From positions 1 through 39,434 of the forward strand of contig NZ_CAMVEE010000019.1 in the NCBI RefSeq assembly GCF_947166415.1: a stretch of DNA of 39,434 bases, in the 5' to 3' direction. A program made the translations under genes and the position numbers. Shown here one piece after another: positions 3,036 to 12,686 of the stretch; positions within the stretch are counted from its first letter, which is position 1; every line of letters begins with the position of its first letter. This DNA comes from an uncultured Methanobrevibacter sp. GTDB taxonomy: Archaea > Methanobacteriota > Methanobacteria > Methanobacteriales > Methanobacteriaceae. The notes beneath the pieces are model-generated. The model was not told the origin of the DNA. It ran no database searches and saw nothing but the letters and a program-made list of their open reading frames with translations.

Positions 3036-4259
3036 ATGGGTACCGAATTTTTAAGAATAAAAGAATGTGACGAAGCTATAGGCATAATTCAAAAATTATT
3101 TGACGATAATCTCAAGCCTCAAAGTGAAGAAATAGATGTAAGTGAAGCTTATGGAAGGATTCTTTTTGAGGATGTTTATTCAAGAATTGATTTTCCGCCA
3201 TTCGATAAGGCTTTAAAGGATGGTTTTGCCATTTTGGCTGAAGACAGTTTCGGCGCTTCAGAAGAATCTCCAAATACTTTGGAAGTCATTGATTTTTTAG
3301 AAGCAGGTTCCACTACAGACAAAAAAGTAGAAAAAGGAAAATGTGTTGAAATCAGTACTGGCGCAGCCATGCCAGAGGGTGCAGAAGCCGTTGTAATGGT
3401 GGAATATAGTGAGAAGTTTGATGATAAAGTCAACTTGCTTACAACAGCAACTCCTTTCCAGGATGTCGCTCGCAAAGGTTCAGATATCAAGGAAGGCAAT
3501 CTAATTCTTAAGAAAGGAGACTTCTTGAATCCAGGTAAAATTGGGGTGTTGCTTTCACAGGGATTTGAAACCATTGAAGTTTATAAAAAACCGTCAGTTG
3601 GTATAGTCTCTTCAGGTAATGAGATTATCCTTCAAGGGGAAGAGTTGGAATATGGAAAAATCTATGATGTAAACGGAAACATGATTAAAAACGATGCCGT
3701 TTCATGCGGTGCTGATGCAAAATTCTTGGGAGTCATGAAAGATGACTACGATGAAGTAAAGGAAAAGATTTCCACTGCCCTTGAAGATGTCGATATTCTG
3801 CTTTGTTCAGGGGGAACTTCTGCAGGACTTGGTGATGTAATGAAACATGTTCTTGATGAGCTTGGTGAAGTTCATATTCATGGAATTTCAGTCCAACCAG
3901 GTAAACCGACTATCGTAGGAGTAATTGATGAAAAAATAGTAATCGGCCTTCCGGGCAATCCTGTTTCCGCTTTGATGATATTCAATGCATTCATCTCTCA
4001 GCCATTGTCTAAATTGGCAGGTATTGAAAAGGAATTCGAATCAAAAATTGTTAAAGGAAAAATGACAAGAAGGATTCACTCTCCTGTTGGCCGTATGCAA
4101 TATCAGCTTGTAAAGGTCAATGGCGAAGAAATCCAACCGATTTTTAAGGATTCCGGTGCAATATTTTCATTGTCAAGTGCCGACGGTTATGTAAAAGTGC
4201 CTAAATCTGTTGAACTTTTAGATGAGGGTGAAGAAGTAGAAGTTTATTTATTCAATTAA
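3036..4259 (+). CDS. moeA: Molybdopterin molybdenumtransferase MoeA
   Basis: MoeA inserts molybdate (or tungstate) into adenylylated molybdopterin, the last step of the cofactor needed by formylmethanofuran dehydrogenase in hydrogenotrophic methanogens. Visible motifs are P-P-F-D-K-A-L-K-D-G-F-A near residue 55 (the MoeA N-terminal P-F-x-x-S-x-x-D-G-[FY]-A motif), G-A-A-M-P-E-G-A-E-A-V-V, the molybdopterin-binding S-G-G-T-S-A-G-L-G-D around residue 263, and G-L-P-G-N-P-V-S-A-L. The length of about 407 aa is that of a plain MoeA without an extra C-terminal domain. I chose the ATG at 3036, preceded by GTGGAT, over the in-frame GTG at 3027, because the same GTGGAT-N3-ATG arrangement starts another gene here (32510). 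The following gene starts 26 bp downstream and may be cotranscribed. Confidence 0.95.
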   Translation: MGTEFLRIKECDEAIGIIQKLFDDNLKPQSEEIDVSEAYGRILFEDVYSRIDFPPFDKALKDGFAILAEDSFGASEESPNTLEVIDFLEAGSTTDKKVEKGKCVEISTGAAMPEGAEAVVMVEYSEKFDDKVNLLTTATPFQDVARKGSDIKEGNLILKKGDFLNPGKIGVLLSQGFETIEVYKKPSVGIVSSGNEIILQGEELEYGKIYDVNGNMIKNDAVSCGADAKFLGVMKDDYDEVKEKISTALEDVDILLCSGGTSAGLGDVMKHVLDELGEVHIHGISVQPGKPTIVGVIDEKIVIGLPGNPVSALMIFNAFISQPLSKLAGIEKEFESKIVKGKMTRRIHSPVGRMQYQLVKVNGEEIQPIFKDSGAIFSLSSADGYVKVPKSVELLDEGEEVEVYLFN

Positions 4260-4285
4260 GTTTATAATTTAAGTAAGGTGTAATT

Positions 4286-4747
4286 ATGGAAAGCGAAGTT
4301 AAAGTAATTCCGGAACAGAAATTAGGAGTTATTAATTATAAAGGCCCAATTGAAGATTTGGACATTCTAGTTTCCAAATTAATGGGATGGGTCGATGCTG
4401 AAGAAATTGATTATGAAGGTGAACCGTTCATTGTCTATTTTTCACCAAGACATGAAGTGAATGACGGTGATGCGGTATTTGATGTGAGCATTGTAATCAA
4501 GGAGGATGCTGAAGAAAAGGACATAATCCGTGTTGTGGACATGATTGAACATAAAGTATTGTCCGGTGTTCATTACGGTTCCGTTGACAATATCCTTGAT
4601 ACTTACGCCGAATTGGCTGATGTTGCTCAGAAAAATCATTATGACATTATAGGATCTCCTAAAGAAGTACTGATAAAAGGTTTCCATAACTGCGATAATG
4701 AAGAAGACTTTGTAACTGAAATTCAATTGCCTATCATAGAAATGTAG
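4286..4747 (+). CDS. GyrI-like (AraC effector-binding) small-molecule-binding domain protein
   Basis: The 153-aa protein is a stand-alone domain of the GyrI-like/SOUL fold: an opening strand V-K-V-I-P-E-Q-K-L-G-V-I, then F-I-V-Y-F-S-P, D-V-S-I-V-I, and the second half K-V-L-S-G-V-H-Y-G-S, which resembles the family's G-x-Y-x-G segment, ending with V-T-E-I-Q-L-P-I. No DNA-binding domain is attached. Such single domains bind small, often hydrophobic ligands, and some hydrolyse cyclopropanoid toxins or inhibit gyrase; the ligand here is unknown. It lies 26 bp after moeA and 8 bp before the next small gene, whose Shine-Dalgarno overlaps this stop codon, so translation of those two is probably coupled. 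Confidence 0.72.
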   Translation: MESEVKVIPEQKLGVINYKGPIEDLDILVSKLMGWVDAEEIDYEGEPFIVYFSPRHEVNDGDAVFDVSIVIKEDAEEKDIIRVVDMIEHKVLSGVHYGSVDNILDTYAELADVAQKNHYDIIGSPKEVLIKGFHNCDNEEDFVTEIQLPIIEM

Positions 4748-4755
4748 GTGATAAA

Positions 4756-5001
4756 GTGTCTAAAGAATTTGATGTAGATGAAGAAATTGAAAAGTTGTCT
4801 CGTAAAACCAACATTAACATGAGAAGAACAGAATATGCTTTCGATAATCAATTAAGAAAATTGGAAAAGGACATTGACCACATTGTTAAAGATAAAATCA
4901 ATAATTTTGATGAGAATAAAGAATTGTCCACTAAATATTTGAATATTGATTACAGTTCTGATTCTATTGACAGATATAAAAAAAGATTAAAGAAAATTTA
5001 A
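4756..5001 (+). CDS. Small charged protein of unknown function (81 aa)
   Basis: I do not recognise the family. The start is GTG at 4756, supported by AGGTGAT at 4746-4752 with a 3-nt spacer, one of the best Shine-Dalgarno sequences in the window. The protein is highly charged, with D/E/K/R-rich heptad-like stretches (residues 1-50), which suggests a soluble helical or coiled-coil protein. There is no signal peptide, membrane segment or cysteine. It sits 8 bp after the GyrI-like gene, so it is probably coexpressed with it and could be its partner; that is inference only. A T-rich terminator follows. Confidence 0.7.
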   Translation: MSKEFDVDEEIEKLSRKTNINMRRTEYAFDNQLRKLEKDIDHIVKDKINNFDENKELSTKYLNIDYSSDSIDRYKKRLKKI

Positions 5002-5020
5002 TAATTTTCTTTTTTTTAAT
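5002..5020. terminator. T-rich terminator between convergent genes
   Basis: Directly after the small charged gene the plus strand reads through T runs (T8 at 5010-5017), typical of archaeal intrinsic termination. It lies between convergent genes; the last codons of pmbA on the other strand run into it. Confidence 0.45.
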
Positions 5021-6326
5021 TTTGACCGACTACCCTTAAATCATGCACCAGTAATTTAGGAATAATGAATGGGCCATACTGTTTGATTTCAGTGTTCAGG
5101 CCTTCTACTTTTTTCATGATTTCAAAAATATTTCCAGAAATCATTGCTTTATTGATTGGATCTGTAAGTTCTCCGTTTTCTATTTTGAATGCATTGCTTG
5201 CTTCTACAGAAAAGTCTCCAGAAATAGGGTTTGCGGTATGAGCTCCTAGGACGCTGGTGGTCAACATTCCTTTGTCAATTTCGGATAACTCTCTCTTTTC
5301 GCCGAATTCGAATTCAAGATTTGATGTTGAAATCATAGGTGTTGTCAGATAACTTCCTCTGTATCCATTGGCGGTAGTTCCTGTTCCCACTTTATTTGCG
5401 GTGTAAATGTCATAGATAAATGAATCCAAAACACCATCTTTTATCAAATCTGTTTTTTTAGAGACGCTGCCTTCGCCATCACACTTGCAGGTATACATTC
5501 CTTTTTCCAAAAGAGGGTTGTCAATGATTGAAAGTGTCGGATTAGCTATTTGCTCACCTACTTTATCCTTTAGAATAGACCTTCCCCTTCTCACATTTTC
5601 ACCATCAAAGGCATTTAAAAATGTTTGAAGAAGTCCTGTTGCAGCATAATAATCTAAAACTACATCATAATCATCGGTTTCGATAGGTTTTGTATCCAAT
5701 GAACTTTTTGCTAAGTCACATACTTCTTTTGCTAATTTGTCGCCATCCAGATCATAAAATCTGGAGGATGTTGAATTGTATGCGGTTGCAATTTTGCCTT
5801 CCTTTTGAATTGTCACGGATAGGCCAATTCCAAAGCCTGTGCCTTCATTTTCTATTGAAACCCCATTTGAATTAAGTATCAATGACCTTCCCGCACTTGC
5901 TGAAAAGCCGGATCCTGTCACGTCACATCCACTGTCTATGGCAAGGTTTATGACATTTTTCAACAGTTCAACAGATTCATCCAGACTCAATTCATTGAAT
6001 TTCTTATCGTAAACTCCTTTAACGTCATTCACCTTTTCAATTTGTGAAAATTCATAGTTTTCATCAACTTTATTTAGTTTTGTGTTCTCGACAGCTTGTA
6101 AAGCTGTTTCGGATATTTTATCTAAATTTGAGGTAAATGCAAATCCTATCTTGTGATCTTTAATGACTCTGATTCCAATTCCCTTTTCAATTTCTTCTTT
6201 TGCAAAGTTCAATTCTTCCTTTCTGGAATCCAGTTCTATGGATTTGGATTCATCAACGTAAATTTCGTATGCATCACAAATGTTTTCAACTTCTTTTTTT
6301 GCCTGTTGTGCTAATTCATATATCAT
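5016..6326 (-). CDS. pmbA: TldD/PmbA family protein, PmbA (TldE) type
   Basis: TldD and TldE/PmbA form a heteromeric metalloprotease that degrades unfolded peptides and matures some modified peptides. This protein (436 aa, normal length) shows the family layout: an N-terminal domain with S-R-K-E-E-L-N-F, the central G-I-G-I-R-V-I segment, and a C-terminal domain with T-A-N-G-Y-R-G-S-Y, G-A-H-T-A-N-P-I-S-G-D-F-S-V and a final G-P-F-I-I-P-K-L-L-V. It has no HExxxH zinc motif, so it is the TldE/PmbA subunit rather than the catalytic TldD. No TldD is in the window. It is the last gene of a probable hypD-phosphatase-pmbA operon, 8 bp after its neighbour. Confidence 0.93.
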   Translation of the reverse strand: MIYELAQQAKKEVENICDAYEIYVDESKSIELDSRKEELNFAKEEIEKGIGIRVIKDHKIGFAFTSNLDKISETALQAVENTKLNKVDENYEFSQIEKVNDVKGVYDKKFNELSLDESVELLKNVINLAIDSGCDVTGSGFSASAGRSLILNSNGVSIENEGTGFGIGLSVTIQKEGKIATAYNSTSSRFYDLDGDKLAKEVCDLAKSSLDTKPIETDDYDVVLDYYAATGLLQTFLNAFDGENVRRGRSILKDKVGEQIANPTLSIIDNPLLEKGMYTCKCDGEGSVSKKTDLIKDGVLDSFIYDIYTANKVGTGTTANGYRGSYLTTPMISTSNLEFEFGEKRELSEIDKGMLTTSVLGAHTANPISGDFSVEASNAFKIENGELTDPINKAMISGNIFEIMKKVEGLNTEIKQYGPFIIPKLLVHDLRVVGQN

Positions 6327-7046: not shown

Positions 7047-8093
7047 CTATCTTTTTGAATATCTGTGAGCGATGTTACATGTTCCTTCTTTACTTACCAT
7101 ACATGCTCCAATTGGGTGAAGCGGATTGCATTCTTTTCTAAATAGTTTGCAATCTTCCGGACGTGCCAATCCTCTGAGGATTGGTCCGCAGATACATCCT
7201 TTAGGGGCTTCATTAACGTCTTTAACTTCAATATCGTATTTTTCACGAGCATTAAATTCACTGAACTCGTCTTTAATTTCTAGGATGGAATTTGGTATTT
7301 TAGGAAATCCTCTCCATTCCCTTGATGTAACATCAAAGACTTGTTCCATCATGTCTTGAGCAATAACGTTTCCTTCTTCCCTAACGGCTCTGTTATATTC
7401 ATTGTCTATTTTCGGTGTTTCTTTGTGAATTTGTCTTAAAATCATATAAACTGACATCAATATGTCTAATGGGTTAAATCCCGCTACTGCTTGAGGAATT
7501 CCGAAGTCGGTTGAGAAATATTCGAATGGTTTAGTTCCAATGATTGTACAAACATGTCCAGGTTGGATTAATGCGTTTAATGATGTCTGTCCTGAATTGA
7601 TTAAAAAGTCAATTGCCGGAGGGATTAACCTGTGGCATGATAATACTGAGAAATTTTCAGGAGGTGTTGCAAGCAATTCCGCAGCGGTAGTCGGAGCAGT
7701 TGTTTCGAATCCTGCAGCTATGAATACAACATCATTGTCCTCTTTTTCAGCTATTTCGATTGCTCTATTGATTCCATAAACAACTCTCACATCTCCTCCT
7801 TCAGCTTTAGCATCTGCAAGTGAGGAATGTGATCCCGGAACTCTTAACATGTCTCCAAATGTTGTAATGGTAACTCCTTTATCAATAAGTTCTAATGCTT
7901 CATCGATTTCACGGGATGGAACGACACAAACGGGACATCCTGGTCCTGCAACGATTTCCACTTCTTCTGGAAGCAAGCTTCTAATTCCGTTTTCCATTAT
8001 TGTGTGTTCGTGAGAGCCACATACGTGCATTATTTTTACGGGGGTGGCTAATTTATTTATTCTATCTAATAACTCTTTTGACATATTTTTCAT
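7047..8093 (-). CDS. hypD: Hydrogenase maturation protein HypD
   Basis: HypD carries a [4Fe-4S] cluster and, with HypC, serves as the scaffold on which the Fe(CN)2CO moiety of [NiFe] hydrogenases is assembled. The 348-aa protein shows the invariant C-G-S-H-E-H-T (C25), G-P-G-C-P-V-C (C53, C56), a central G-F-E-T-T-A-P-T-T, G-F-N-P-L-D-I-L, and the cysteine-rich C-terminus (C-I-C-G-P-I-L-R-G-L, E-C-N-P, G-A-C-M-V-S-x-E-G-T-C). The start ATG at 8093 is preceded by GGTGTT with a 3-nt spacer. It is the first gene of a three-gene unit with the HAD phosphatase and pmbA. Methanogens use several [NiFe] hydrogenases, so the gene is expected. Confidence 0.98.
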   Translation of the reverse strand: MKNMSKELLDRINKLATPVKIMHVCGSHEHTIMENGIRSLLPEEVEIVAGPGCPVCVVPSREIDEALELIDKGVTITTFGDMLRVPGSHSSLADAKAEGGDVRVVYGINRAIEIAEKEDNDVVFIAAGFETTAPTTAAELLATPPENFSVLSCHRLIPPAIDFLINSGQTSLNALIQPGHVCTIIGTKPFEYFSTDFGIPQAVAGFNPLDILMSVYMILRQIHKETPKIDNEYNRAVREEGNVIAQDMMEQVFDVTSREWRGFPKIPNSILEIKDEFSEFNAREKYDIEVKDVNEAPKGCICGPILRGLARPEDCKLFRKECNPLHPIGACMVSKEGTCNIAHRYSKR

Positions 8094-8179: not shown

Positions 8180-9847
8180 ATGTTTAATAATAATAAAATT
8201 TTAGTAGTTATTCCTGCAAGAGGGGGCTCAAAGGGCATTCCTCGCAAGAATATCCGCTTATTGAATGATAAACCATTAATTTCTTATTCTATCAATACTG
8301 CGAAATCTTCTCAATATGTGGATGATGTTGTAGTAACTACAGATGATTCTGAAATTGCATTGATTTCTGAAAAATTTGGAGCTAGTGTTATCAGACGTTC
8401 AGAAGAGTTATCTACAGATGAGGTCACTCTTGACCCCGTAGTGTATGATGCAATGGTTCAAAAAGAAAAATTGGCCTTTGATGAATATGATATTGTAATT
8501 ACAATAAAACCTACTTCTCCATTGCTCAAGGTGGAAACATTGGACAGGGCTATTGAAAAATTTGAAGATTTCTCTGTTGACAGTGTGATTTCTGTCGTTG
8601 ATGACAGGCATTTGAATTGGGGATATGATGAAAATAATGATAGATATTTCCCGCTTTATATGGAAAGATTGCCTAGACAGGAGTTGCCAAAGTCATTTAG
8701 GGAAACTGGAGCCTTTTTAGCGACTAGAAGATCTTTTGTCAATGAATTTTCACGTCTTGGAAGCAATATAGATATTGTGGAAGTTTCTAAGGAAGAAAGT
8801 GTTGACATCACCTGTTTTGAAGATTGGTGGATTGCAGAAAACTATCTTCAAAAGAAAAAAGTCGCCATCATAGTTAACGCATTTGAGGAAATAGGCACAG
8901 GAAATATGAATAGGTGTTTGACAATAGCTTCCAAACTGGTTTTCAATGATGTGGTGTTCTTCTTGGATGAAGCTCATCCTTTAGGAATTGATATGGTAAA
9001 CAGCTATAACTATAAATACATGATTTATGATGGTTTCGATAATTTATTTGATAAATTGGAGGAATATAATCCTGAAATTGTAATTAATGATATTTTAGAT
9101 ACAAATTCAGAGCATATCCTCAATTTGAAGAGTAAAGGTTATTTTGTTGTCAATTTTGAAGATTTAGGTACTGGTTCTGAATTTGCAGATGTTGTTTTCG
9201 ATGATCTGTATGAACATGATTTGTCTCAAAAGAATATATTTACAAGCTATAAATACTATATTCTAAGAGACGAATTTTATTTCCAACCTCAAAAGATAAT
9301 TACTAACGCTGTCAACAATGTTCTGATTGCTTTTCCAGGCACTGACCCAAACAACCTTACAGAAAAGGTCATAAACGCCATTCTTTCAACAAATTATGAA
9401 GGAAGGGTCAATGTTATTGTGGGAATAGGTTATCCGGATAAGGAAGGATTGGTAGCTAAGATAGAATCAAATCCATCAGTTCAAGTTTATACTAACGTTT
9501 CAAATATAAGTGAGTTCATGTTTAAAGCTGACATAATGTTCACATCAAGTGGACGTTTGATGTATGACATCTGTTCATTAGGTGTTCCGACAATATGTTT
9601 ATGTCAGGATGAACGGGAATTGACTCATGCATTCAGCAGCAATACAAACGGATTCATAAATATGGGTCTTGGCGAACCTCTTGAGGTAGCCGAAGTCAGA
9701 GACCAGTTCATCGAGTTGGTTAATAATTATGAGCAAAGATTAGAAATGCATAAAAGGATGTCTTCTATCGATGTAAAAAATGGATTTAAAAATATTTGGA
9801 CAGTAATTGATGACGAATATCGAAAATTCAAATTGGAAAATAGGTGA
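8180..9847 (+). CDS. Fusion: NeuA-like CMP-nonulosonate cytidylyltransferase + PseG/SpsG-like domain lacking the catalytic His
   Basis: Residues 1 to about 225 are an intact-looking acylneuraminate cytidylyltransferase: I-P-A-R-G-G-S-K-G-I-P-R-K-N (11-24), T-T-D-D-S-E-I-A, R-S-E-E-L-S-T-D, K-P-T-S-P-L and the acidic D-I-T-x-F-E-D near 209-215. These enzymes make CMP-activated sialic-like sugars from CTP. Residues 226 to 555 match the GT-B-like PseG/SpsG family, which hydrolyses UDP from a UDP-sugar in pseudaminate synthesis. Its glycine-rich loop reads G-T-G-N-M-N-R-C at 239-246, so the catalytic histidine of G-x-G-H-x-x-R-C is Asn242. The C-terminus keeps S-S-G-R-L-M-Y-D. Hydrolase activity is therefore doubtful. 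The NeuB homologue follows directly, with its ribosome binding site overlapping this stop codon. The likely product is a surface nonulosonate-type sugar, but the exact sugar is unknown. Confidence 0.85.
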   Translation: MFNNNKILVVIPARGGSKGIPRKNIRLLNDKPLISYSINTAKSSQYVDDVVVTTDDSEIALISEKFGASVIRRSEELSTDEVTLDPVVYDAMVQKEKLAFDEYDIVITIKPTSPLLKVETLDRAIEKFEDFSVDSVISVVDDRHLNWGYDENNDRYFPLYMERLPRQELPKSFRETGAFLATRRSFVNEFSRLGSNIDIVEVSKEESVDITCFEDWWIAENYLQKKKVAIIVNAFEEIGTGNMNRCLTIASKLVFNDVVFFLDEAHPLGIDMVNSYNYKYMIYDGFDNLFDKLEEYNPEIVINDILDTNSEHILNLKSKGYFVVNFEDLGTGSEFADVVFDDLYEHDLSQKNIFTSYKYYILRDEFYFQPQKIITNAVNNVLIAFPGTDPNNLTEKVINAILSTNYEGRVNVIVGIGYPDKEGLVAKIESNPSVQVYTNVSNISEFMFKADIMFTSSGRLMYDICSLGVPTICLCQDERELTHAFSSNTNGFINMGLGEPLEVAEVRDQFIELVNNYEQRLEMHKRMSSIDVKNGFKNIWTVIDDEYRKFKLENR

Positions 9848-9852
9848 TTATT

Positions 9853-10884
9853 TTGAATATTTTTACCAAAAAACCATTTTTAATCGCGGATGTTAGAAAT
9901 GACTTCCTTAAAATAGTCCAATCAAATAACATTTCCAATATGGATGCTGCAAAAAGTGCAATAAATCAGGCAAAATCATGCGGATTTGATGCAGTGAATT
10001 TTGAAGCATATCATTTAAAAAATCTATTTTCAAGAGATTATGTGGAATATCTCTCTAAAGAGCCCATAACATCTCATTTCTTTAAATTTGATGAATTTGG
10101 GTATGAAGAATTTCGTGAATTGGCAGATTATTGTCATGAGGTAAAAATTTCATTTTTAGCAACACCGATGGACTTTGAGTCAGCAGATTATTTGGAGGAA
10201 TTTGTGGACGTTTATAAGATTTCTTCTCATGATTTAACAAACATTCCATTCATCAAACATGTTGCAAGTAAGGACAAACCTATATTGCTCAACACAGGTG
10301 GTGCAACAATGAAAGAGATAAAGGATGCTGTCAGGGCAATTGAAGAGGACTCTCTTGTTGATATTGCGATAATGCATAGCGTCTTATCCTATCCGACATC
10401 ATATGATGATGCCAATCTATTGATGATTAAAGATCTTGTCAACAATTTCCCAGATTATGAAATAGGATATTGTGATTATACTGAAGTTGATGATGATTTG
10501 CTTATTCTGACAACCGCTTATAACTATGGTGCAGTTGTTTTGGAAAAGCAGTTCACATACGATAACATTACAACTGACAATAGTTGCGCTATAACTTATG
10601 ATGAGGTAATCAAATTCAAAAGTAAAATCGCATTCTTATCCAAGATTAACGGTCGCATCAATAAGCAGCCTTTGATTTGTGAATCCTTTGCAAGGAATGA
10701 AACTAGAAGGTCAATTGTCGCCAAAACCGATATTAAAAAGGGCGAACTGATTTCTGAAGATAAAATCACATTTAAAATGCCTAGCATTGGAATTTCACCG
10801 GCACAGGTTGAAGAAGTCATCGGAAAAAAAGCGAAAATGGATATCTTTAAAGATAACCTAATTGATTTTGATATGTTAGATTAA
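9853..10884 (+). CDS. NeuB/SpsE-like nonulosonate synthase homologue with divergent active site
   Basis: NeuB enzymes condense phosphoenolpyruvate with a C6 amino sugar to make sialic, pseudaminic or legionaminic acids. The fold is clear: A-T-P-M-D-F-E-S-A-D-Y-L, Y-K-I-S-S-H-D-L-T-N, I-L-L-N-T-G-G-A, M-H-S-V-L-S-Y-P-T, I-G-Y-C-D-Y, L-E-K-Q-F-T, and a C-terminal SAF domain from about residue 283 beginning T-R-R-S-I-V. The two Mn-binding histidines of characterised NeuB (His215 and His236 in the meningococcal enzyme) correspond to Y209 and Q233, and the N-terminal E-I-G-x-N-H motif is D-V-R-N-D-F. I prefer the TTG at 9853 as start, since AGGTGAT at 9842-9848 sits 4 nt upstream; an in-frame GTG at 9844 is the alternative. 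It is translationally coupled to the NeuA-PseG fusion. Confidence 0.82.
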   Translation: MNIFTKKPFLIADVRNDFLKIVQSNNISNMDAAKSAINQAKSCGFDAVNFEAYHLKNLFSRDYVEYLSKEPITSHFFKFDEFGYEEFRELADYCHEVKISFLATPMDFESADYLEEFVDVYKISSHDLTNIPFIKHVASKDKPILLNTGGATMKEIKDAVRAIEEDSLVDIAIMHSVLSYPTSYDDANLLMIKDLVNNFPDYEIGYCDYTEVDDDLLILTTAYNYGAVVLEKQFTYDNITTDNSCAITYDEVIKFKSKIAFLSKINGRINKQPLICESFARNETRRSIVAKTDIKKGELISEDKITFKMPSIGISPAQVEEVIGKKAKMDIFKDNLIDFDMLD

Positions 10885-10910
10885 AAAAAAGAAAAGATGG
10901 ATGGTTAAGT

Positions 10911-11093
10911 TTAGTCATCTATTGTAATACATTCGTTTGGACACATGTCCACGCATGTTTCACAGTAGCTGCATTCGTCCGGATCATTGATTGTTATTTT
11001 GCCATCCTTAAGTATTAGTACTTCCATTGGGCAAACATCACTACAATCCCCACAATTGTCACATTTACTTTCATCTATTGTTATTTTAGCCAT
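10911..11093 (-). CDS. 2[4Fe-4S] ferredoxin
   Basis: This 60-aa clostridial-type ferredoxin has two complete cluster motifs, C11-x2-C14-x2-C17-x3-C21-P and C41-x2-C44-x2-C47-x3-C51-P, each binding one [4Fe-4S] cluster. It is a soluble low-potential electron carrier for enzymes such as the 2-oxoacid oxidoreductases. The start ATG at 11093 has GGAGATT upstream on the minus strand. It is convergent with the neuB homologue (26 bp gap) and lies 60 bp downstream of the zinc-ribbon/NERD-like gene on the same strand, probably as its own unit, since an A/T-rich gap separates them. A specific partner cannot be named. Confidence 0.95.
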   Translation of the reverse strand: MAKITIDESKCDNCGDCSDVCPMEVLILKDGKITINDPDECSYCETCVDMCPNECITIDD

Positions 11094-11153
11094 TATTCAA
11101 TCTCCATAGTTTTTTCATAATTTTTATAAAATTAAAAATAAAAAAAAGAAAAA

Positions 11154-12686
11154 TTAAATTTCTGAAGAACAGTCTGCAGCATAGTTGTTAATCAAAACTG
11201 CACACTTGTCAATTGTTTCAGAATCTAATTTTATAGTGCTTGTTTGGATCTTATTCAATAATTCTTCAATAAATAGGTCCTCATCAGTCAAAGGCATATT
11301 TATAACGACAACTTCATTGTTTATAAAACCGACTAATGGTTCAACAAAGCAATTTCTGATGTTGTTGTCATTAAGGAAGTTTATTAAATCTTCACCTAAG
11401 CTTAAAGCTTTTTGTTTTACTTTATTGTCTTGAGAGAATTTTGCCTGTTTGGTTGTGTATCTGAATTTTCTTACATTTTCAGAGTTAGTAAATTCTTCAA
11501 GCTTGTCTTCATCTAATTCACTTGATCCAATTAAATTTAGATTTTCATTTTCAGAGTCTAATCTTAGTTTCGGATTATATTTTTGTGATAGAAGAGCATA
11601 AATTCCAGTTGGACCAACAACTAAATGGTTAATACCTGAGTTAGATGTTGGAGTTTTCACGTTGTAAAAGACATAATATTCTTCAGGGAGAGTTAACAAG
11701 TGTTCTCTTATGATTCTTGATCTTTCTTCAACTTCTTTTACATCACGAGTTTTATATAGTCCGTAACATAAGATAATTACTCCAATAATTAAAGTGAATA
11801 TACCTAAATTACTGTTGATAAGCAAAATCTCAATTATACTTATAACAAATACTGCCGCACCGATTGTTGTTATTGCGGAATTTTGGTCAATTTCATCATT
11901 TTCAAAGAAACTTCTTTCTTCTTCAATTGTATCGGTTTTGATAATATTGTTATCAGGTTCTTTTATAGCTAATTTATCGAGAAAACCTCCAAAGGAGTTT
12001 TCTGGCTCATTTGGGGTATCGTCTACATAATATTCTTTCATTCCTTTTAAGAATTCATCTTTCAGGAAATTTTTCAAAATATTATAATCATTAGTTTTTG
12101 GAACAGCAAATTCTCTTCCGAATTTTTTCATAACTGCTTTAGGAATAGTGGTTCTAGCAGTCTTACCGTTCATTTCAGCATCTAATTCTTCTTGTCTTTT
12201 CTCGTTATCAGCTATTTCTAGCATATGTTCTTCTGAGAAGAAATTTTCGATTTTGTTTGTAATTGACTTTATGGAGCGTATGTTATCTTCTGTTTCAGGT
12301 CCTTCAGATGCTGGATCTTTAGGTTTAGATTGTGCCCTGTATTTTTCTGCTTCTTTTTTTCTTTGTTCGAGATACTTGTCAAGTTCTTTGTTCATATCAT
12401 CATCTAAATATCTTAAAGAACCTCCACAACTATCACATTCGTAATCAAGTATGTTATCACTGCTTTTGATTTTATATTTCAATCCGCAGTCTTCACATTG
12501 GACAATATATGAATTATCATACTTGAATGAATCCATAAAAGAAGAACGAGACTTTTTGTCTCCATCAGAATACTCTTCTAAATATTCTAACTCTCCTGCA
12601 CATGAAGAACACTCGAATGTACTTATATCGTCATCATCATCGAGTTGGTATTTAGCACCACAGTTCTTACAGCATACAACTTTCAT
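11154..12686 (-). CDS. Membrane protein with two N-terminal zinc ribbons and a C-terminal NERD-like domain
   Basis: The 510-aa protein begins with two four-cysteine zinc ribbons: C6/C9 with C26/C29, and C64/C67 with C84/C87. A charged, probably helical linker (residues 95-265) follows, then two adjacent transmembrane helices (about 271-290 and 293-312). The cytosolic C-terminal domain resembles the NERD nuclease-related fold (Y-Y-V-F-Y-N-V, then G-I-N-H-L-V-V-G-P-T-G-I-Y at 351-363). The aspartate of the usual I-D-H-V-V-V is Asn353, and the E-x-K that should follow is replaced by L-S-Q-K, so nuclease activity seems unlikely. The start ATG at 12686 follows GAGGATAAT. Domain assignments for the zinc ribbons and helices are direct; NERD is a moderate-confidence call. 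The role is unknown. Confidence 0.72.
   Translation of the reverse strand: MKVVCCKNCGAKYQLDDDDDISTFECSSCAGELEYLEEYSDGDKKSRSSFMDSFKYDNSYIVQCEDCGLKYKIKSSDNILDYECDSCGGSLRYLDDDMNKELDKYLEQRKKEAEKYRAQSKPKDPASEGPETEDNIRSIKSITNKIENFFSEEHMLEIADNEKRQEELDAEMNGKTARTTIPKAVMKKFGREFAVPKTNDYNILKNFLKDEFLKGMKEYYVDDTPNEPENSFGGFLDKLAIKEPDNNIIKTDTIEEERSFFENDEIDQNSAITTIGAAVFVISIIEILLINSNLGIFTLIIGVIILCYGLYKTRDVKEVEERSRIIREHLLTLPEEYYVFYNVKTPTSNSGINHLVVGPTGIYALLSQKYNPKLRLDSENENLNLIGSSELDEDKLEEFTNSENVRKFRYTTKQAKFSQDNKVKQKALSLGEDLINFLNDNNIRNCFVEPLVGFINNEVVVINMPLTDEDLFIEELLNKIQTSTIKLDSETIDKCAVLINNYAADCSSEI

Follow-up and report, generated by a model that had tools for sequence, protein, structure and literature searches.

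The closest described relatives of the gene pair examined here are the NeuB/PseI/LegI nonulosonic-acid synthases, which join a NeuB domain (PF03102) to a SAF domain. The NeuB homologue of the present locus belongs to the same family, has the same fold and domain order and likewise lies in an operon with a CMP-transferase and PseG, but both of its Mn-binding histidines as well as E25, K53, Q55 and R314 (meningococcal NeuB numbering, used for NeuB throughout) are replaced. The NeuB proteins at the same locus in other Methanobacteriaceae, and homologues from Lachnospiraceae, Bacillus, Methanohalophilus and Halobacteria, share the gene pair and an N-terminus of the EIGVNYYDIA type and, unlike the protein studied here, appear catalytically intact. 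The archaeal relatives and certain bacteria, for example Bacillus marasmi (L147), have genes for a GT-B-fold enzyme, a flippase and an acyltransferase close by. An altered metal site is also found in the metal-independent KDO8P synthases of the same TIM-barrel superfamily; these keep the remaining catalytic machinery, which the present protein, unlike these class I KDO8PS-like enzymes, does not. Finally, pseudoenzymes in general have likewise lost catalytic residues while their fold stays under purifying selection. They usually stand beside a live paralogue, whereas here three active sites seem to have died side by side in a genome that holds no live paralogue.

The neuA and neuB annotations of Methanobrevibacter are commonly taken as evidence of sialic-acid-like sugars on gut and rumen methanogens. 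Specifically, neuA/neuB-like genes have been noted in the genus, with doubts for M. arboriphilus (PMC5467289), and a sialic-acid pathway has been predicted for M. ruminantium (PMC2812497). A search of the open literature for a NeuB pseudoenzyme, or for erosion of this kind, found nothing relevant. The comparative data presented here make it probable that the nonulosonic-acid pathway at this locus is dead and that its proteins, the fusion protein above all, have been retained as pseudoenzymes with a second role.

The window, a stretch of 39,434 nucleotides from an uncultured Methanobrevibacter species, carries the pair between two conserved neighbours (Table 1). The operon ends with NeuB, whose gene overlaps the upstream fusion gene by 4 bp; an alternative TTG start at 9853 would give a protein of 343 aa and matches the N-terminus of most orthologues (MNIF..).

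Table 1. Features of the locus in the window
Feature	Position	Strand	Remark
hypD	7047..8093	-	conserved divergent upstream neighbour, synteny anchor
CMP-nonulosonate synthetase (PseF/NeuA type) + PseG-type fusion	8180..9847	+	555 aa
NeuB-family protein (TIM barrel + SAF)	9844..10884	+	346 aa from GTG at 9844
Scar of deleted module	10885..11153	.	directly 3' of NeuB
Zinc-ribbon/NERD-like protein	11154..12686	-	conserved convergent downstream neighbour, synteny anchor

An earlier note on this DNA had described a NeuB homologue that keeps its fold and SAF domain and has lost both Mn ligands, and both observations hold. Alignment to meningococcal NeuB places a tyrosine at H215 and a glutamine at H236 (Y209 and Q233 in the earlier note, Y212 and Q236 when counted from the GTG), and the losses reach considerably further, with E25 changed to D, K53 to N, Q55 to E, S154 to N, S213 to C and R314 to M, while K129, S132, Y186 and D247 are retained. 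The window protein differs at 32 of the 79 residues that do not vary among 62 sequences from beyond the genus. According to work cited in PMC6795526, Arg314 of meningococcal NeuB is essential to catalysis. The protein nonetheless matches Pfam NeuB (PF03102, E=8e-50) and SAF (E=3e-12), both above the gathering cut-off, and its predicted structure is an intact TIM barrel plus SAF domain (AF2 pLDDT 79), for which the best Foldseek matches are NmNeuB, SpsE and PseI (TM 0.79 to SpsE, 1vli). Its scores of 220 and 160 bits against TIGR03569 and TIGR03586, obtained for the window protein and not for intact members, fall below the equivalog cut-offs of 400 and 340. Judged by these residues, catalysis by the window NeuB has probably been lost. 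The reported loss of the EIGxNH motif, in turn, is no sign of degeneration, because its histidine is Tyr or Phe across the whole NeuB subfamily, catalytically intact members included (EIGVNYYDIA). The second, canonical NeuB that the earlier note proposed looking for is absent from the assembly (1.72 Mb, 91.7% complete), where PF03102 is found once.

The fusion protein is altered in a similar manner. It consists of a CMP-nonulosonate synthetase domain (about residues 1-222; Pfam CTP_transf_3, E 1e-25) and a PseG-type domain (about residues 226-480), with NCBIfam scores of 125 bits for PseF and 110 bits for PseG that both lie under the equivalog cut-offs. Six of 48 fusion residues constant outside the genus are lost in the window. 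The PseG domain has its catalytic His242 replaced by Asn, together with E463 to D and N477 to D, and the CMP domain has lost one Mg ligand (D211 to T) and kept D209. As such, all three active sites of the pair carry catalytic-residue changes. Among the genomes compared, the PseG histidine is gone in 15 of 65 fusions, the window's among them. The positions of D209/D211 hold D/D in each of the 13 scored fusions that come with the module; in the others, mostly N, E, S, T or V stand there. In meningococcal CMP-Neu5Ac synthetase, D209A and D211A greatly reduce turnover, with kcat about 15,000-fold lower in the one mutant that could be measured (PMC2901514). The residues thus point to loss of both the CMP-transferase and the PseG activity of the fusion.

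The window's gene pair is not a lone oddity, since orthologues occupy the same locus throughout the genus. Most of its 67 genomes, the majority of the genomes compared being metagenome-assembled (MAGs), carry the fusion and NeuB between hypD and the zinc-ribbon gene, with the same flanks on both sides; we take this genus to be the M. smithii/gottschalkii/millerae clade. About ten other genomes, strictly syntenic and sharing long branches, have also lost one or both metal histidines, so that the loss at the positions of Y209 and Q233 recurs in orthologues, while the replacing residues differ between lineages. Canonical metal-site histidines, and in most cases the fusion neighbour, are found in the homologues from other Methanobacteriaceae genera, bacteria, Methanohalophilus and Halobacteria. 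The tree of the fusion-NeuB pair broadly agrees with that of the flanking genes, which indicates a vertical pattern; horizontal replacement, considered as a cause of the patchy distribution, was rejected on these grounds. NeuB itself has been deleted in at least four lineages (nine genomes), and in two MAGs (L041 and L042) it has a disrupted reading frame, whether by error or in reality; NeuB thus seems dispensable at least sometimes. In five loci with Tyr at both metal-histidine positions (L033, L036, L037, L038 and L040), a new conserved motif, FHVGDSE.LHC, replaces KFQ.

What distinguishes intact from eroded loci, with one exception, is a module directly downstream. Intact relatives have, at the position of the scar, about 3.4 kb that encode, in order after NeuB, a 475-aa GT-B-fold protein, a Wzx-type flippase and, on the opposite strand, a hexapeptide acyltransferase. 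No remnant of any of these three genes was found in the window's scar, and in many genomes the module has been excised without trace, leaving gaps of 9-13 bases; dispensable DNA is therefore not spared at this locus. The GT-B and flippase genes are present in 16 of the 67 genomes, the same 16 for both. With the module present, 14 of 15 loci have lost at most one of the 79 NeuB sites and none of the 48 fusion sites; with the module absent, the losses range from 2 to 40 NeuB residues and from 0 to 13 fusion residues, in sequences not cut by a contig end. The exception, L044 (G046:C28), has kept the module, yet has lost 20 NeuB and 5 fusion residues. It is the only locus in which both NeuB histidines are gone (to Asn and Pro) while the GT-B and flippase genes remain. 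Its GT-B gene, too, deviates more than any other (8 of 107 sites), and the locus looks like a case of decay begun ahead of module deletion. The genome of L044 also holds a second, canonical NeuB of another type.

The association also holds among phylogenetically independent pairs, in which the module-less member shows the erosion in about 7 of 9 for NeuB (p ~0.016) and about 8 of 9 for the fusion (p ~0.008), never the reverse. The earlier suggestion that NeuB and the PseG-bearing fusion changed together is likewise upheld, as erosion of the two falls in one and the same lineage in about 9 of 10 independent pairs and in none runs the other way (p ~0.004). Mapped on the flanking-gene tree, the module changed state at least 10 times, and these changes are read as losses because the outgroups carry the module; the metal site and K53 each changed at least 6 times, K129 at least 9 times, the PseG histidine at least 12 times and NeuB presence at least 4 times. 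In module-less loci, losses have struck 31% of catalytic and 54% of substrate-loop NeuB residues and 13% of the other invariant ones (p 4e-7). The link to unusual surface sugars of pseudomurein-walled methanogens, a guess in the earlier note, finds no support, because other Methanobacteriaceae genera carry a fully canonical version and the erosion goes with the disappearance of the GT-B and flippase genes.

The ancestral operon thus comprised the CMP-transferase-PseG fusion, NeuB, the GT-B-fold enzyme, the flippase and the acyltransferase. Many times within the genus the last three disappeared, and in those loci the fusion and NeuB have shed active-site residues. If the GT-B enzyme and the flippase represent the steps that use and export the sugar, their loss would have ended selection for catalysis by NeuB, PseG and the CMP-transferase. 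The pair, mainly the fusion, may then have survived as pseudoenzymes that form a scaffold or a regulatory complex, in a second role that is independent of the active sites, with NeuB as an accessory partner that could finally be lost. Dozens of relatives appear, from their residues, to share the loss of active sites in fusion and NeuB. The fuller proposition, that a gene pair with three activities was turned independently in many gut-methanogen lineages into a dead but selected pair whose second function lies mainly in the fusion, seems to us evenly poised.

The strongest competitor is slow decay. On this view the pathway became useless once the GT-B and flippase genes were gone, NeuB and in time also the fusion, now functionless, are drifting towards deletion, and open frames merely reflect how recent this is. 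Much of the pattern would suit it: erosion accompanies module loss and is graded, NeuB has been deleted or possibly broken in several lineages, and the window's branch is about three times longer than that of L078, its nearest relative by tree path. The earlier note had held that same-context orthologues with canonical histidines would point to simple decay, and L078, with its intact operon, is such an orthologue, which makes this a probable loss of catalysis in the window's own lineage. Nevertheless, the retained frames and the dN/dS values are hard to square with plain pseudogene decay, and both proteins are under purifying selection with open frames. Five species that share a Tyr/Tyr metal site, and hence an already metal-less ancestor, have NeuB dN/dS of 0.11-0.21 by NG86 and below 0.05 by ML, both methods being used since dS is often saturated; these values lie above most intact pairs and far below 1. 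Simulated neutral drift over the divergence from L078 to the window produced about 8.6 nonsense events, and none of 400 simulated frames stayed open; the share left open was 4% when only half of the divergence was neutral and 18% when only a quarter was. On the branch leading to the window dS is close to saturation, so that a short spell of neutral evolution may have occurred there. Since NeuB is last in the operon, its open frame is not explained by a downstream gene or polarity.

The fusion provides a second argument against slow decay. It is kept in 66 of the 67 genus genomes and in all 37 high-quality ones, although neighbouring module genes have been removed without trace. M. smithii-like and other genomes have the fusion at the same locus with NeuB removed there, and fusion dN/dS in two NeuB-less pairs is 0.08 and 0.15. 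The losses are, moreover, focused on active sites and not evenly spread. Slow decay is thus unlikely, if still a serious contender, and retention as pseudoenzymes accounts better for a window NeuB that is an enzyme homologue lacking several catalytic residues, has relatives that remained under purifying selection after their metal site was gone, and shows neither a broken frame nor neutral evolution as a pseudogene would.

A neofunctionalised enzyme, in which NeuB and the fusion catalyse a different, metal-independent reaction on another substrate, is very unlikely. The NeuB superfamily is shared with the DAHP and KDO8P synthases, among which metal-independent members exist; K129, S132 and D247 are retained in the window protein, and the motif at the former KFQ is conserved in one clade. 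However, the replacements vary by lineage (H236 to Q, Y, F, N, P or L; K53 to N, M, E, D or L), a variety that speaks against one new chemistry common to all, and R314, E25, Q55 and the substrate loops are lost as well. The CMP-transferase and PseG sites erode alongside, leaving no single coherent new active site. Consequently, of the three options raised by the earlier note, a non-catalytic role fits best, and a different condensation or substrate lacks support, as the residues for metal, PEP and sugar have no coherent substitute. An assembly artefact, or a normal NeuB with misread residues, is hardly credible even for a 62-contig assembly that is 91.7% complete, since 32 of 79 invariant sites differ and one or both of the same histidines are lost in about ten more syntenic genomes, and these parallel changes exclude sequencing error as a general cause.

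The findings have implications for how these genomes are read. A neuA/neuB annotation at this locus would be wrong for most species of the genus, and the downstream GT-B and flippase genes offer a simple predictor of which species are probably still able to produce the sugar. That three active sites were lost repeatedly and independently while the proteins stayed would constitute a natural experiment on how a pathway becomes a set of pseudoenzymes. It also points to a further function of the fusion, which hardly any genome lacks in this clade, the dominant one among human and ruminant methanogens.

Several further observations were made along the way. A pseudaminic-acid route by way of PseB and PseC was considered for the operon, but neither enzyme passed the curated cut-off in the genome of the window or in those intact-operon genomes that were tested. 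Both pass it in an M. smithii-like chromosome (G042:C1:1569582-1574786), about 3 kb from that genome's only NeuB, and this is a pseudaminic-acid cluster; it agrees with a published correction of M. smithii from sialic to pseudaminic acid, as cited in PMC6137143. The 475-aa protein matches no Pfam or NCBIfam model and has no PDB sequence relative at E 1; it is predicted to be a GT-B enzyme (pLDDT 91), and its fold matches, which include NeuC, TarL/TagF and a polysialyltransferase, are too unspecific for a name. Its family, exemplified by L061:5265-6689 (-) and L147:3562-4935 (+) and marked by invariant HP and T...EG motifs, adjoins CMP-transferase-PseG/NeuB in archaea and bacteria alike, and the protein is a candidate nonulosonate transferase. 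The scar of the window contains a 60-aa ORF (10911-11093, -) with two CxxCxxC...C motifs, which resembles a small 2x[4Fe-4S] ferredoxin. A membrane segment is predicted for the neighbouring zinc-ribbon protein, which is weakly similar to NERD and is kept at this locus in nearly all members of the genus. At L050, a DDE transposase gene (4196-5542, -) sits where the GT-B and flippase genes vanished, and it is possibly the agent of one deletion.
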